Source of the DNA: Asticcacaulis tiandongensis | GTDB taxonomy: Bacteria > Pseudomonadota > Alphaproteobacteria > Caulobacterales > Caulobacteraceae | DNA: 64,000 nucleotides | Assembly: GCF_006475605.1 (NCBI RefSeq) | Contig: NZ_SSBC01000021.1 | Location: 62,001-126,000, forward strand | Direction: 5' to 3' | In this document: piece by piece, positions 52,463 through 57,552 of the stretch | Numbering within the stretch: position 1 is the stretch's first letter | How the letters are laid out: each line of letters starts with the position of its first letter | The notes under the pieces: generated by a model | Database searches by the model: none | The model's input: the letters and a program-made list of their open reading frames with translations, nothing else | What the model was told of the DNA's origin: nothing | Program-made: the position numbers and the translations under genes

Positions 52463-52788
52463 TCATACAGATTACGGGCCGCAGGGTACATCCTGCGACC
52501 CCTGATTTTTGCGCTCCGCTATCATGCGCAGGCCTTGCCAATAATTTACAACGTTAACCTTTATAACAACAATATACTTACTGCGGGTTTGATACTCATT
52601 TTACCGCCAAAATATTGATGAGCAAGGTAAAATCAAACCAGCTCATCGCGTAAGTATTGTCTGCGTGCGCAGGACATAACGCTTCAGGCGTTAACCTGAA
52701 TTCAGTTCATTTTTAGATTTTTCAACGCATTACAGAGCGGGCTTTGATCCGCCATTGCAGGCCTTGTTTGCCCGCAGAAGGAACCGTC
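52463..52788. other. Intergenic region with several dyads upstream of the ECF sigma gene
   Basis: No gene is seen in these 326 bp. After the GH43 terminator there are three dyads: GGTTTGAT/ATCAAACC arms at 52586-52639, TAACGC-TTCAG-GCGTTA at 52677-52693 and the palindrome CTGAATTCAG at 52696-52705. CTGCG-TG-CGCAG lies at about 52661-52672. The region should contain the promoter of the sigma/outer-membrane-protein operon, and the dyads may be operators. Confidence 0.5.
52477..52511 (+). terminator. Rho-independent terminator after GH43 gene
   Basis: GGG-C-CGCAGG pairs with CCTGCG-A-CCC (one mismatch) around a 6-base loop, then CTGATTTTT follows. It lies 14 bp after the GH43 stop codon. Confidence 0.7.
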
Positions 52789-53343
52789 ATGTCCTCAGCG
52801 TTCCATGACGCCATTGTGGCGAATATCCCCGACTTGCGCCTGTTTGCAATCAGGCTGGCGGGTCCCAACGACGCCGATGATCTTACTCAGGAGGCTCTGG
52901 CAAGGGCCCTGAGATACAGCGGAAGCTTTGTCGCCGGCACGGATATGAAAGCCTGGCTGTGTCGCATCGCTCAGAACTGCGCCTACCGCCGCTGGCACCG
53001 GCAAAAAGACACCATACAGGATGTCGAGGGACAATGCGCCGCCAGACAGTCCGTCGCCGCCTCTCAGGAATGGTCTCTCGAAGCCAGAGATACCCTGACG
53101 GCGCTGGACAGCTTACCAGAGGAAACGCGTGGTGCGCTGGTAATGACGGCCATTGGAGGCCTGTCCTATCAGGAAGCGGCGCAGGCGGCCCATTGCCCTG
53201 TGGGCACACTCAAAAGCCGCATCAACCGCGCCCGCGAACAGCTTAGTGAACTGGGTTATGGCCCGCCCCATCCTGAAAAGCTGTCTGCGAATACCAAAGC
53301 TCACCCGACCAACTGTATTTTGATTGAGGTACCTGCCGAATGA
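52789..53343 (+). CDS. ECF sigma factor coupled to outer-membrane pore gene
   Basis: Sigma factor of 184 residues. Region 2 has LAGPNDADDLTQEALARALRY and AWLCRIAQNCAYRRWHRQ. Region 4 has LDSLPEETRGALVMTAIGGLSYQEAAQAAHCPVGTLKSR. About 25 extra residues follow region 4. I start it at 52789 (MSSAFHDAIVANIP), with AAGGAA 7 bp upstream. Its stop overlaps the next ATG (ATGA), so the sigma factor is translationally coupled to the beta-barrel gene. No anti-sigma gene is adjacent. It resembles the alphaproteobacterial EcfG-like group in region 4, but the assignment to a subgroup is uncertain. It probably drives the downstream secreted-protein genes. Confidence 0.9.
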   Translation: MSSAFHDAIVANIPDLRLFAIRLAGPNDADDLTQEALARALRYSGSFVAGTDMKAWLCRIAQNCAYRRWHRQKDTIQDVEGQCAARQSVAASQEWSLEARDTLTALDSLPEETRGALVMTAIGGLSYQEAAQAAHCPVGTLKSRINRAREQLSELGYGPPHPEKLSANTKAHPTNCILIEVPAE

Positions 53344-54623
53344 CATTCCGCCTGTTTCGACGCCCCGCTCTTTCCGGTATTTTATTGTCAGGCACCTGCC
53401 TTCTGGCCCTGCATACCTCTGCCTTTGCACAAACCTCAGAGGCACGGATGGCGGCCATTGAGCAGAGGCTTGAGGCGCAGGAAAAACAACTGTCGGAACA
53501 GCAGGCCGAGCTTGATCGGCTAAAGGCCGAGCGTGACGCCTTATGGGATCTGGTACGCGCCGGTCAGGCGGTTAATCCGGCAAATATTGGCCCCGAATCT
53601 AATGCCGCCATATCGCCGCGCCCACAAACTGTCGTTGCACAAAATAATGCCCCGACATCTGAAAACCTTCCCGCGCGCCCTGTTGGCGAAGCGCCCCCCT
53701 CAGAGCGTCAGGTGCGCGATGTCGCCGCCCTCCCTGAACGGGCAGGCGTTCTGACGCCTAAGGGCCGCTTCGTCCTGACCCCCTCATTCGAATATGTCCG
53801 CACCAGTAATAACCGTCTGGTTTTCCGGGGCGTTGAAATCGTGCCGGGCATTCAGCTTGGGGTGATCGAGGCCAATGACGCCGACCGCGATTCACTGGTG
53901 GCCACCGCTGCCCTGAGATATGGTCTGACGCGACGGCTGGAGGTTGAGGCCCGCATTCCCTATGTCTATCGCCATGACCGTGTCACCACGGTCGCCCAGC
54001 GCGATGAGACCATAACCCGCACCATGGAACTGGAAGGTCAGGATATTGGCGATGTCGAATTTTCGATGCGCTATCAGCTGAATGAGCTTGAGCCCGGCCG
54101 CCCCATCTTTGTCGGCAATGCGCGTGTCAAACCGCCTACCGGACTAGGGCCTTATGATGTTCGCTATGACGAGGCCGGAATTGCCACGACACTGGCGACG
54201 GGTTCAGGGTTCTGGGCGGTCGAAAGCGGCGTAAGCATGCTTTACCCCACCGATCCGGCGGTGATCTTTGCGGGCCTCACCTATCTGCATAATATTCCGC
54301 GCGATGTCGATAAAACCATCGGCGAGGTTCTCATCGGACGGGTAGAGCCTGGTGACTCCATCGGCGCTAATCTCGGGTTCGGCCTGTCCTTAAATCCGCG
54401 CTTTTCGGTCTCGCTTGGTTATAGTCATAACTATATTTTCCCCACCAAAACCCAGATCGGCGGCACATGGCAGGAATCCAACAGCCTTCAGGTCGGGTCG
54501 ATGTTTATGGGCTGGTCATATCGCCTGACCGAACACCATACACTGAGCACCAATTTTGAATTTGGCGTAACCAGTGATGCACCGGATATGCGCGTCGTTT
54601 TCAGTGCCCCCTATCGCTTTTAA
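53340..54623 (+). CDS. Coiled-coil plus beta-barrel outer-membrane protein, FapF-like architecture
   Basis: Protein of 427 residues with a signal peptide (GILLSGTCLLALHTSAFAQ). A heptad coiled coil follows (about 34-75; RMAAIEQRLEAQEKQLSEQ, AELDRLKAERDALWDLV), then a Pro/Ala-rich linker (about 80-135), then a 290-residue beta-barrel with alternating hydrophobic strands ending VVFSAPYRF, with the C-terminal Phe typical of outer-membrane proteins. In Pseudomonas, FapF has the same order (N-terminal trimeric coiled coil, then barrel) and exports amyloid subunits. Here the following genes encode secreted repeat proteins and a C39 peptidase, so an export pore is the best guess. Sequence homology to FapF was not tested. 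Confidence 0.75.
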   Translation: MTFRLFRRPALSGILLSGTCLLALHTSAFAQTSEARMAAIEQRLEAQEKQLSEQQAELDRLKAERDALWDLVRAGQAVNPANIGPESNAAISPRPQTVVAQNNAPTSENLPARPVGEAPPSERQVRDVAALPERAGVLTPKGRFVLTPSFEYVRTSNNRLVFRGVEIVPGIQLGVIEANDADRDSLVATAALRYGLTRRLEVEARIPYVYRHDRVTTVAQRDETITRTMELEGQDIGDVEFSMRYQLNELEPGRPIFVGNARVKPPTGLGPYDVRYDEAGIATTLATGSGFWAVESGVSMLYPTDPAVIFAGLTYLHNIPRDVDKTIGEVLIGRVEPGDSIGANLGFGLSLNPRFSVSLGYSHNYIFPTKTQIGGTWQESNSLQVGSMFMGWSYRLTEHHTLSTNFEFGVTSDAPDMRVVFSAPYRF

Positions 54624-54644
54624 GGGGGTTGAATATAGATAGCG

Positions 54645-54661
54645 GTGTCGCCTTGCGGCAC
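54645..54661 (+). terminator. Hairpin after the outer-membrane protein gene
   Basis: GTGTCGC (54645-54651) pairs with GCGGCAC (54655-54661), with one G-U pair, around CTT. It lies 22 bp after the stop. The T-rich sequence further on (ATTTTGTCACTTTTTT) is 11 bp away, so it is a weak terminator or attenuator. Confidence 0.35.
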
Positions 54662-54810
54662 TGCACACTAATTTTGTCACTTTTTTATATATTTGTATTT
54701 AAAAAGTTTTTTCTGATTTTAACTAAAATTTCACCGAACATTTTATCGCGATCGGGATTGTATGATCTGGAGGAGAGGCCTCCATTAACTCATGCATGAG
54801 GTTTAGGCTA

Positions 54811-55803
54811 ATGTACAAGACAACACCCAAAATGCTGGTCTCCGCGTCGGCGCTCGCAATCGGACTGGCTCTGGCCAGCGGCAGCATGGCGCAGGAAATT
54901 AATGACAGCACCGTAACCCTGACGGCCACCGACAGTTCCGATAATTCATCCACCGATTCCTCAACCCGTACCCGTACGACCGACAATTCGGATAATTCGA
55001 CACGGTCGTGGGCGGATAATTCGGATAATTCAAGCTGGGCCGATAATTCCGACAACTCAACGTCAGACAGTTCTGATAATTCGACGACAGATAATTCAGA
55101 CAACAGCAACCACAGCGACAATTCGGATAATTCAAGCTGGGCGGACAATTCCGACAACTCAACGTCAGACAGCTCTGATAATTCGACATCGGACAGTTCC
55201 GATAACTCAACCACTGACAATTCCAATAACAGCGACAATTCGTCCTGGGCTGACAATTCAGACAATTCGACGACGGATAACTCAGATAACAGTGACAACT
55301 CGGACAACAGCGATAACTCGGATAACTCAAGCTGGGCGGATAATTCCAACCATTCCAATAACTCGGATAACAGCAATAATTCTGACAACAGCAATACGTC
55401 CGATAGTTCAGACAACTCAAGCTGGGCGGACAACTCGGATAACTCCGATAACAGTGACAATTCTGATAACTCGGATAATTCGGACAACAGCAACAACAGC
55501 GACAACTCAAATCGCTCGACCTGGGCTGACAACTCGGACAACTCCGATAATTCCGATAATTCTGTAACCTATTCCAGCCTGTCCTTGCAGGAGCTTGACG
55601 CCAGCGTTACCGGCACCACCGTAGCCCTTGGCGGTGAAGCTCAGGAAGGCAGCCTGAACACCGGCGAGATTACGGCTTCCGGCGGCTCCTATGCCAACTT
55701 TGCCGGCATCCAGACCAATAGCCAGAACACAGGCGTTGGCTCGATCAATCAGGCCGCCACCGCCGTTTCCGCTAATGCCAATATTTCGTTCGGCAGCAAC
55801 TAA
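54811..55803 (+). CDS. Secreted Asp-Asn-Ser tandem-repeat protein
   Basis: Protein of 330 residues. Signal peptide (MLVSASALAIGLALASGSMAQ, cleaved after Gln28 or nearby), a Thr/Ser-rich stretch, then about 190 residues (about 60-250) built of DNS triplets with variants TSDSSDNS, TTDNSDNS and seven copies of WADNS. There is no Cys or Lys in the repeat and very few Arg, so it is strongly acidic. The C-terminal 80 residues differ: L257-SLQELDASVT-G268 fits the double-glycine leader consensus, followed by 62 residues rich in Gly, Asn, Ser and Ala (GIQTNSQNTGVGSINQ). Start at 54811 has GAGG at 9 bp. No family recognised; a surface or matrix fibre subunit, possibly amyloid-like, is inferred. Confidence 0.8.
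   Translation: MYKTTPKMLVSASALAIGLALASGSMAQEINDSTVTLTATDSSDNSSTDSSTRTRTTDNSDNSTRSWADNSDNSSWADNSDNSTSDSSDNSTTDNSDNSNHSDNSDNSSWADNSDNSTSDSSDNSTSDSSDNSTTDNSNNSDNSSWADNSDNSTTDNSDNSDNSDNSDNSDNSSWADNSNHSNNSDNSNNSDNSNTSDSSDNSSWADNSDNSDNSDNSDNSDNSDNSNNSDNSNRSTWADNSDNSDNSDNSVTYSSLSLQELDASVTGTTVALGGEAQEGSLNTGEITASGGSYANFAGIQTNSQNTGVGSINQAATAVSANANISFGSN
54990..55563 (+). repeat. Degenerate coding tandem repeat (DNS triplets)
   Basis: The DNA is a run of GA(C/T)-AA(C/T)-Ser-codon units interrupted by (A)GCTGGGC(G/C)GA-type blocks encoding SWADNS. Serine is spelled by TCG, TCA, TCC, AGC and AGT in mixed order. The protein repeat is therefore kept while the DNA has diverged, which argues for selection on the protein and against a recent slippage array. 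It is not a CRISPR: there are no unique spacers and the frame is intact. Confidence 0.9.
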
Positions 55804-55814
55804 GCCCACAGGCT

Positions 55815-55839
55815 CCGGGTCGGCATAAGGCCGGCCCGG
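55815..55839 (+). promoter_or_regulatory. Intergenic hairpin after the repeat-protein gene
   Basis: CCGGGTCGG (55815-55823) pairs with CCGGCCCGG (55831-55839), with one G-U pair, around seven bases. It is 12 bp after the stop and has no T run. Such hairpins often stabilise the upstream message or reduce read-through, giving more of a major subunit than of later genes. That role is inference. Confidence 0.5.
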
Positions 55840-55885
55840 ACGCCAAACGTTTAGATGGAGCCAAATGTTTCAGATGGAGAATCTG

Positions 55886-56299
55886 ATGCCCAGTCAGACC
55901 TTATCGCGCCTTGCCCCCGCCGTTATGCTGCTCACCCTGAGCCTGTCGGCGCCCGGCCATGCCGCCGATCCCATACGGGTGACACCGCTTCAGCCCGAAC
56001 GCCCCGATCCGGTCAGTGACCTCAAGCCAGCGGCTCTGGATCCGGAAGAACTGAGCACCATCAGCGCCGGTGCAGATACCCACATTGATGTGATCACCCA
56101 GCAGGACCTTACCGCTGTGAACAGCGGCAATTCCATTTCCGCAGACAGCGTCGGTTCCGGCAGCATCAACCTTACCAGCGGGGCATTGCAGGGCTATAAC
56201 GGGGTGGGCAATTTCGTCATGAACACCGGCCACAACAACAATCTGCAAGGCACGGTCAGTGTGACGGTGATTAATACCGCCGACCTTCCCCGTCAGTGA
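55886..56299 (+). CDS. Small secreted protein with double-glycine-type motif
   Basis: Protein of 137 residues. Signal peptide (APAVMLLTLSLSAPGHA, cleavage near residue 27), a Pro-rich linker, then L51-DPEELSTISA-G62, which matches the double-glycine leader consensus at exact spacing. Cleavage there would free a 75-residue C-terminal piece with SGSINLTSGALQGYNGV and GNFVMNTGHNNNLQG. This piece shares the pattern GS[IL]N..., Y..[FV][AG].[IF].[TM]N[ST] with the C-terminus of the repeat protein. I use ATG 55886. An ATG at 55865 is also possible, since AGATGGAG occurs before both (55853 and 55872). It is probably a minor subunit or nucleator; no known family was recognised. Confidence 0.75.
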   Translation: MPSQTLSRLAPAVMLLTLSLSAPGHAADPIRVTPLQPERPDPVSDLKPAALDPEELSTISAGADTHIDVITQQDLTAVNSGNSISADSVGSGSINLTSGALQGYNGVGNFVMNTGHNNNLQGTVSVTVINTADLPRQ

Positions 56300-56306
56300 G
56301 CGGGCC

Positions 56307-57041
56307 ATGACCACCACATATGTGAAACCACTTATGAAACCTCTGGGATTTGCGCTTCTTGCCGCCGCCATTGCGTTTGCGGCAAACGGCCCCGCCTTGT
56401 CACAAAGTTTTCTGAGCGATGGCGATACGCTCTATAATCTGCCCGTCACCTCAATGCGCGACATTCCGTTCCGTACCGTTGTGCGCCAGCAGTACGACTA
56501 TAGCTGCGGCTCCGCTGCCGTGGCTACACTACTGCACCATCATTACGGCGTAGGGGTCAGTGAAGCCGAGGTCTTCAAAGCCATGTATGCGGTCGGCGAT
56601 CAGGCCAAAATCCGCAAGGTCGGATTTTCGTTACTCGACATCAAACGCTATCTGACCACACAGGGTTTTGATTCCGACGGCTACCGCGCCACCTATGATC
56701 AGCTGGCCCGCACTAACCGACCGGCCATAGCGGTGATAACGGTGGGCACCTATCGACATTTTGTGGTTATCAAAGGGGTGCGTGAGGATGCAGTACTGGT
56801 GGGGGATCCGGCGCTGGGGCTTAAAACCTACAGCCGTGATGAATTTTCACGGGTCTGGAACGGCATAATCTTTGTTATTCAGAGCGGCCCCGAGGATTTG
56901 CTTGCCTATAATGACACCGCCGAATGGCAGCCTTGGGCCACAGCGCCACTGGGGCAGGCCATGGGCAACGCGTCTCTCTCGGGCTTTACCCGCGATCTTC
57001 CGCCCATCTATCAGGTGTCACCGATGCTCGGCACCCCCTGA
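56307..57041 (+). CDS. Periplasmic C39-family cysteine peptidase (FapD-like)
   Basis: Protein of 244 residues with a signal peptide (LGFALLAAAIAFAANGPALSQ) and one C39 peptidase domain (about 50-195). The catalytic set is complete: Gln61 or Gln62 in RQQYDYSCGSAAVATLL, Cys67, His151 in YRHFVVIKGV and Asp167 in VGDPALGLK. C39 enzymes cleave after double-glycine leaders. Usually they are the N-terminal domain of a peptide ABC transporter; here the enzyme stands alone and is exported, as FapD is in the Pseudomonas Fap operon. It follows its presumed substrate gene by 7 bp. About 50 C-terminal residues beyond the domain are unassigned. Confidence 0.88.
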   Translation: MTTTYVKPLMKPLGFALLAAAIAFAANGPALSQSFLSDGDTLYNLPVTSMRDIPFRTVVRQQYDYSCGSAAVATLLHHHYGVGVSEAEVFKAMYAVGDQAKIRKVGFSLLDIKRYLTTQGFDSDGYRATYDQLARTNRPAIAVITVGTYRHFVVIKGVREDAVLVGDPALGLKTYSRDEFSRVWNGIIFVIQSGPEDLLAYNDTAEWQPWATAPLGQAMGNASLSGFTRDLPPIYQVSPMLGTP

Positions 57042-57054
57042 CCTGTATTGCGAG

Positions 57055-57552
57055 ATGAACATGCGCCCTTCGCTATATTATGCCATCTGCCTGTTATGTC
57101 TGACCTCGGCCCCGTCGGGGGCTCAGGAGCGTCTGGACGCGCAGGAACTGGCGGCGCAGACAGGTGGCTTGCGCACCCCTACAGGTATCGAATTTAATTT
57201 TGGGGCGACGGTCGATACCTATGTGGACGGTGAAATGGCCCTGCAAACGCGCCTCACCTGGACGGAGCAAGGCATTGTGCAGACCCAGACCCCCTATTCC
57301 GGCGACTTGAGCGCAGGCGGCGTCACCCTGCCCGGCCTGAATGGGGAAACGGTTATCATTCATGACATAGCCGACCAGCGCATCGCCAGTCTGGTGCTCA
57401 ACAGTGCCGATGGCCGCGATATTCGTCAGGATACGGCGGTCACCCTGAGCATACCGGAACTCACAGGCCTTCAGTCTGAATTTTCCGGTCAACGTGTAGA
57501 GATGCAACTCAACAGCGCGGTCGGACGCGCTTTGACAGATGCCGTGCGTTAG
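57055..57552 (+). CDS. Secreted protein with N-terminal double-glycine leader motif
   Basis: Protein of 165 residues. Signal peptide (YYAICLLCLTSAPSGA, cleavage near residue 23) followed almost at once by L27-DAQELAAQTG-G38, an excellent fit to the double-glycine leader consensus LSxxELxxIxGG. The remaining 127 residues look beta-rich (GIEFNFGATVDTYVDGE, LQTRLTWTEQGIVQTQ). No family is recognised with certainty; small secreted proteins with an L-D-x-x-E-L-x4-G motif after the signal are known in other proteobacteria. It lies 13 bp after the C39 gene and ends the operon. An ATG at 57061 is an alternative start. Confidence 0.72.
   Translation: MNMRPSLYYAICLLCLTSAPSGAQERLDAQELAAQTGGLRTPTGIEFNFGATVDTYVDGEMALQTRLTWTEQGIVQTQTPYSGDLSAGGVTLPGLNGETVIIHDIADQRIASLVLNSADGRDIRQDTAVTLSIPELTGLQSEFSGQRVEMQLNSAVGRALTDAVR

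Follow-up and report, generated by a model that had tools for sequence, protein, structure and literature searches.

A candidate double-glycine-type leader on the FapE-position protein beside an exported FapD-like C39 peptidase of Asticcacaulis tiandongensis

The 64,000-nucleotide stretch analysed here (hereafter the window; Asticcacaulis tiandongensis, contig NZ_SSBC01000021.1, positions 62,001 to 126,000) encodes an exported C39 peptidase next to three secreted proteins, each containing a 12-residue string that resembles a double-glycine leader. Such cutting tags are normally found on bacteriocins. The question raised by the locus is which of these proteins, if any, the peptidase cuts after export. 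A sequence-only reading had proposed periplasmic double-glycine processing of all three. The strings do lie in open frames, at 55579-55614, 56036-56071 and 57133-57168, but the identical spacing claimed for them holds only inside the 12-mer, since their positions in the proteins differ (262, 58 and 27, respectively). A crude hydropathy rule recognised a Sec-like N-terminus on the peptidase and on all three string-bearing proteins, as that reading had stated.

Our analysis makes it probable that, in the periplasm, the FapD-like peptidase cuts a double-glycine-type leader off the protein encoded directly downstream (the FapE position), and probably also off a small protein encoded upstream, leaving the site in the DNS-repeat protein uncut. 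We directly observed the operon content, the conserved catalytic residues and the conserved leader beside the peptidase. The proposal of periplasmic processing is supported for an exported C39 peptidase with a Sec-exported, leader-bearing partner; it fails for the DNS-repeat protein, and the site in the small protein is weak. The main features are as follows.

56307..57041, + strand: FapD-like periplasmic C39 cysteine peptidase, a 244-residue stand-alone open reading frame (ORF) with Gln61, Cys67, His151 and Asp167
57055..57552, + strand: FapE-position secreted protein, predicted substrate; beta-rich core and C-terminal helix, model mean predicted local distance difference test (pLDDT) 85
57133..57168, + strand: LDAQELAAQTGG, double-glycine-type leader; score 15.7, conserved in relatives

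The leader of the FapE-position protein

The consensus described for double-glycine substrates has Leu at -12, Glu at -8, Leu at -7, Gly at -2 and Gly, Ala or Ser at -1 (PMC6959990, PMC6363468), and that of the leaders of peptidase-containing ABC transporters (PCATs) is given as L(-12)xxxE(-8)L(-7)xxxxGG (PMC6959990). LDAQELAAQTGG conforms to this consensus at every position. Strings were scored with a matrix of 12 positions derived from 64 motifs found in relatives, the window's own family being excluded. With this matrix LDAQELAAQTGG scores 15.7, and a score of at least 15 was reached by none of 1333 control signal-peptide ORFs, taken from 1.51 of the 3.22 Mb of the same genome (52 kb of it being the window outside the locus).

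Conservation beside peptidase homologues, named as a check by the sequence-only reading, was borne out for the downstream protein, whose motif is kept in most relatives examined. At the order level, peptidase matches at E <= 1e-8 were present in 31 of 299 genomes, the window's own included; in the neighbourhoods retrieved, the product of the next gene downstream typically has a signal peptide and a motif like MSVEDLEAHRGG, LSDEELLDARGG or MSEAELDEARGG. At the phylum level, the FapD model matched at E <= 1e-15 in 39 of 398 genomes, eight of them above the equivalog cut-off, and forty FapD-family loci were fetched. Specifically, in all eight equivalog-level FapD loci (seven read as neighbourhoods, the eighth from the short locus L068) the motif lies behind the signal peptide of the directly downstream FapE-position protein. 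At the 17 peptidase places of loci L094-L109, which partly belong to the training set, the downstream protein reached at least 12 in every case, and the directly upstream protein never reached 12 and only once reached 8.

A further set of 80 loci was collected by another route with the matrix fixed; three overlapping earlier loci were dropped, and 76 of the 77 kept had a downstream signal-peptide ORF. A score of at least 12 was found in 58 of these 76 proteins, compared to 3 of 898 control signal-peptide ORFs from the 80 loci, each at a distance above 2.5 kb; at a threshold of 15 the counts are 51 of 76 and 1 of 898. In the combined tally of 149 downstream signal-peptide ORFs, which is partly circular as some of them trained the matrix, 123 score at least 8 and 115 at least 12. 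Among the 121 distinct 12-mers scoring at least 8, Leu or Met occupies -7 in 120, Arg -3 in 115 and Gly -2 in all, while -1 is Gly in 100, Arg in 12 and Lys in 6; the residue following the motif is Phe or Tyr in 104. The ending is RGG in 99 of the 105 entries outside L094-L110, and the 18 entries within that group end in RGR (12), RGK (4), HGK (1) or TGK (1).

In a test whose selection made no use of the motif, profiles started from the core of the window's downstream protein alone, without its leader, had by iteration 2 retrieved 108 segments from 106 loci. A leader-like 12-mer (score at least 8) lies no more than 12 residues from the core start in 93 of the 108 segments, compared to 89 of 20000 random positions. 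In addition, the same leader precedes both the FapE-position core and the fibre-type core of the small upstream protein, and the two cores show no clear homology (hhalign probability 5.7). One leader on two unrelated-looking cores is therefore a better fit to an enzyme-read module than to a structural strand.

Locus L112 contains two peptidase copies 2.9 kb apart, flanked by the same leader proteins, which looks like a tandem duplication of recent date. In L101, a single cluster encodes two FapD-like peptidases, and behind each of them lies a separate downstream protein carrying LSDSEL[AG]QQRGR. The downstream leader proteins of family f5 (L046-L051) have a short N-terminal part followed by low-complexity repeats such as FGDNGVFG and FGEEGVFGE. 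Leader-like starts (LSDAQLGAVAAG, LTDAQLGTVTAG and LDDAQLDTATGG) were also observed on other secreted proteins beside FapD-like peptidases, namely the upstream ORF of L058 and L059 and the ORF at 9122-9448 of L062, and substrates may therefore extend beyond FapE-type proteins.

The exported peptidase and the fate of the leader

The peptidase matches the C39 family model PF03412 with an E value of 5e-24 (85.1 bits, above the curated cut-off of 22). It also matches FapD (NF058616; E 1.5e-45, 155.2 bits) and FilB (NF050078; E 1.3e-38, 132.9 bits), in both cases below the respective cut-offs of 330 and 475. As a 244-residue stand-alone ORF with no fused ATP-binding cassette (ABC) transporter, it falls outside the PCAT class. 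No second PF03412 match was found in the host genome at E <= 0.001, and because this peptidase is the sole match, no C39-type ABC exporter was found there.

The oxyanion Gln and the catalytic Cys, His and Asp are invariant across 27 aligned peptidase sequences. The structural model (mean pLDDT 84) matches in fold the peptidase domains of PCAT1 and LahT, including the LahT-leader complex. Within the groove block GFSLLDMK, the Gly, Phe, Ser and second Leu are invariant in the 27 sequences, and in our reading of a phmmer alignment its Gly and Leu stand opposite A55 and I59 of PCAT1, the two residues mutated there as hydrophobic partners of the leader (PMC6959990). For PCAT1, replacing Leu at -7 or -12 of the leader by Ala has been reported to lower recognition. 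The leader of the modelled downstream protein is helical from -10 to -4, as in the PCAT1 complex, at low confidence (the first ten residues average a pLDDT of 53).

That a cut takes place, at which bond it falls and how it affects secretion are predictions from the sequences. In the proposed mechanism, the proteins would cross the inner membrane via Sec and lose their signal peptides, and the FapE-position protein would still bear a short leader with Leu at -12, Glu at -8, Leu at -7 and Gly-Gly at -2/-1. The exported peptidase would hold this leader in its conserved groove and cut after the two glycines, predicted to be after Gly38, giving a mature protein of 127 residues. The cut would mature the FapE-position protein and permit or trigger its passage through the FapF-like channel. 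A probable second substrate would be the small fibre-type protein encoded upstream, and the DNS-repeat protein would not be cut at the proposed site.

A different fate for the leader has to be weighed against cleavage, namely that the conserved block serves as a tag for docking or targeting, bound by the C39 protein or by the FapF coiled coil as chaperone or receptor, with no cut at the two glycines. Some C39-like domains are indeed non-catalytic tethers or chaperones (PMC6173800, PMC6363468), and the Arg or Lys found at -1 of canonical FapE would fit the narrow PCAT cleft poorly (cleft described in PMC6959990). The invariance of the four catalytic residues in the 27 sequences speaks against it, as do two findings from Pseudomonas: Cys38 of FapD is required for FapC secretion, the C38A exchange abolishing it, and FapE lacked peptides from its first ~70 residues (PMC5557850). 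According to the same paper, FapD has a Sec signal and acts in the periplasm, and peptides of FapA to FapD indicated no processing. We consider the docking tag unlikely.

Several observations nevertheless count against cleavage after a double glycine as set out above. Specifically, 18 of the 76 later-fetched downstream proteins score below 12, some of them looking like errors of start site or ORF choice, and that of the closest named relative, Asticcacaulis solisilvae (peptidase 68% identical), scores only 6.0 (LATEELEREVGG). Glu occupies -8 in 61 of the 121 distinct motifs, and eight g18 loci lacked a FapF-like match in the stretch that was fetched. In all eight equivalog-level loci the motif ends in RGR or RGK without a literal GG (LKDAEMAELRGR and similar); in canonical FapE the cut may therefore fall at another bond, or the leader may serve for docking only. 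Finally, hhalign of 20 window-type against 17 canonical-type FapE cores gave a probability of 0.2, not a significant similarity. A profile from mixed seeds matched both core types, its seeds having been chosen by the motif.

The operon, its channel and the two upstream proteins

The ORF list of the window contains six same-direction genes from 52744 to 57552, in the order ECF sigma factor, channel, DNS-repeat protein, small secreted protein, C39 peptidase and 165-residue secreted protein. Besides those listed above, the features are:

52744..53343, + strand: extracytoplasmic function (ECF)-type sigma factor gene; Pfam Sigma70_r4_2 E 5e-13, Sigma70_r2 E 2e-9
53340..54623, + strand: FapF-like outer-membrane channel with signal peptide, coiled coil and barrel
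54796..55803, + strand: DNS-repeat protein; a signal peptide, and a fibre-type domain at the C-terminus
55579..55614, + strand: LSLQELDASVTG, judged to be strand 1 of the fibre-type domain rather than a leader for cleavage
55865..56299, + strand: small secreted protein, a 144-residue ORF with signal peptide, leader-like element and possibly a Fap-repeat-like core
56036..56071, + strand: LDPEELSTISAG, probable leader; score 12.3, homologues with GG in genus g18

The sigma factor gene runs 4 bases into the FapF-like gene, which suggests its product as a possible regulator of the operon. The channel matches the NCBIfam model FapF (NF058560; E 3e-41, 141.6 bits, below the equivalog cut-off of 700) and FilC (NF050079; E 1e-18). 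By these matches the locus is a Fap/Fil-like secretion operon, a character that the sequence-only reading had missed; as the channel and peptidase matches all lie below the equivalog or exception cut-offs, it is a certified member of neither group. In the stretches fetched, 21 of 33 order-level entries (the window counted among them) had a FapF-like match, as did all 40 phylum-level FapD-family loci, two of these 40 matches being weak or partial.

The channel itself could be the true target of FapD, cut at a GG before the barrel, the element in the FapE-position protein then being structural. This was called plausible in PMC5557850, and of 61 FapF-like ORFs, three have a 12-mer scoring at least 8, two of which (L036 and L109) reach at least 12; that of L109 carries LAPDDLVTMRGR, with a score of 14.5, before the barrel. 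Moreover, two of the three control hits of the later set (L233 and L238) look like putative coiled-coil FapF-type proteins. Against this, 58 of the 61 ORFs are without a 12-mer scoring 8, and the window's FapF-like protein peaks at 1.0. With only 3 of 61 bearing such a 12-mer, FapF does not usually carry the element, though it may in a few systems; we consider it quite improbable that FapF is the true target.

Returning to cleavage of the leader-bearing proteins, the small upstream protein is the second candidate. LDPEELSTISAG scores 12.3, and at least 12 was reached by 3 of the 1333 own-genome ORFs at any position and by 1 within the first 80 residues. With Ala at -2, it deviates from the double-glycine consensus. 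Homologues in g18 carry LSLEDMxALSGG and the like; in the small proteins of the window's family the hydrophobic and acidic positions are kept, the window's string ends in AG, and several close relatives end in AE, AQ, AR, GE or GW. LDPEELSTISAG is thus leader-like, as first read, with an ending that departs from the double glycine, and it is probably the leader of the small protein, its cut site degenerate in close relatives. A cut is possible after residue 69 of the 144-residue ORF (Gly62 in the numbering of the sequence-only reading), and it may lie one residue off. The small protein was reached from canonical FapE cores at iteration 7 only (E 1.4e-4), where profile drift is possible.

For the DNS-repeat protein, the sequence-only reading had predicted a cut into a repeat part and a 62-residue C-terminal piece, and a version of the mechanism in which all three strings are cut would include it. 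The window's copy does have Leu at -12, Glu at -8, Leu at -7 and Gly at -1. Yet LSLQELDASVTG lies at residue 262, away from the signal peptide, departs from the consensus with Thr at -2, and scores 8.9; because 33 of the 1333 control ORFs reach 8 and 9 reach 10, such a score is not distinctive. The element is present in 22 of 23 N/S/D-rich ORFs, the window's included, and in these 22 copies -2 is Ser or Thr in 20, Ala in 1 and Gly in 1, while -1 is Gly in 9, Asp in 7, Asn in 5 and Ser in 1. In addition, hhalign matches the C-terminal domains of the DNS-repeat protein and eight relatives to the cores of the small proteins with a probability of 92. In this alignment LTNQDLAASVTG of the L032 relative is paired with ITQQDLTAVNSG, a core strand of the window's small protein located beyond the leader of that protein. 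The proposed cut would therefore fall inside the fibre-type domain, and we rejected LSLQELDASVTG as a cleavage site. FapB and FapC of Pseudomonas have been reported intact (PMC5557850), and cleavage of all three strings appears very improbable.

A long open frame rich in Leu, Ser and Glu (54723-55541, - strand) runs antisense to the DNS repeat and was taken as a by-product of the repeat.

Known systems and meaning for the FapD family

The window has in common with the Fap functional-amyloid system (Pseudomonas FapABCDEF) an exported C39 peptidase, a FapF-type channel, Sec-exported parts, fibre-type proteins and, encoded immediately behind the peptidase, a protein that bears a leader. It differs in its FapD and FapF matches, which lie below the equivalog cut-offs, in a downstream core that is not detectably FapE, in the extra DNS-repeat protein and ECF sigma factor, and in a leader ending in GG instead of RGR or RGK. 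The Fil models of NCBIfam (FilB and FilC) are the next-best matches for the window's peptidase and channel. In five (L127-L131) of six loci taken as Fil-like (L126-L131), a secreted protein upstream of the FilB-type peptidase has a related element ending in TGQ, such as MDDAALSGVTGQ, which was not seen in L126 and is perhaps a third form of the site; a FapE-position protein was not seen in any of the six. With PCAT1, LahT and ComA the window shares the C39 fold, the catalytic residues and the leader consensus at -12, -8, -7, -2 and -1, but its peptidase stands alone, with a Sec-like signal and no ABC fusion, and, unlike in PCAT leaders, Arg at -3 and an aromatic residue at +1 are typical of its relatives.

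A periplasmic C39 peptidase is not new, because FapD was published earlier (PMC5557850). In that 2017 paper the target of FapD is called unclear and the Fap proteins are said to lack canonical C39 sequences; elsewhere the substrate is described as yet to be determined (PMC6173800), and a 2025 review names FapF and the N-terminus of FapE as presumed targets of FapD processing (PMC12822426). FapD and FapF were considered likely members of larger families (PMC3792158). The portions available of PMC3792158, PMC3684753, PMC5135000 and PMC10638192 contain no report of a leader motif, nor do the titles or abstract starts surveyed describe one in FapE, a coverage that leaves out subscription papers and supplements. 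The new point is a leader-type recognition element in FapE-position proteins, those at equivalog level included, for which we found no earlier description in the literature surveyed.

In conclusion, we lean, with caution, towards the view that the FapD family forms a second, periplasmic and ATP-independent branch of double-glycine processing across the Proteobacteria, in which a Sec signal and a leader are stacked and FapE-type proteins are the common substrate; FapE of the Pseudomonas type would then be cut at an RG[R/K] site, and so have been overlooked. Such a cut, if true, would be an unusual C39 specificity. Comparison with relatives that have a literal RGG brings the leader element to light, and the element offers a defined bond and defined residues for testing. 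FapD is needed for amyloid secretion, and the recurring tag makes the target of the family directly testable at the peptide level. If true, the export of biofilm amyloid would be tied to the leader code of bacteriocins, and there would be a sequence handle by which further secreted substrates of the FapD family could be found and annotated.

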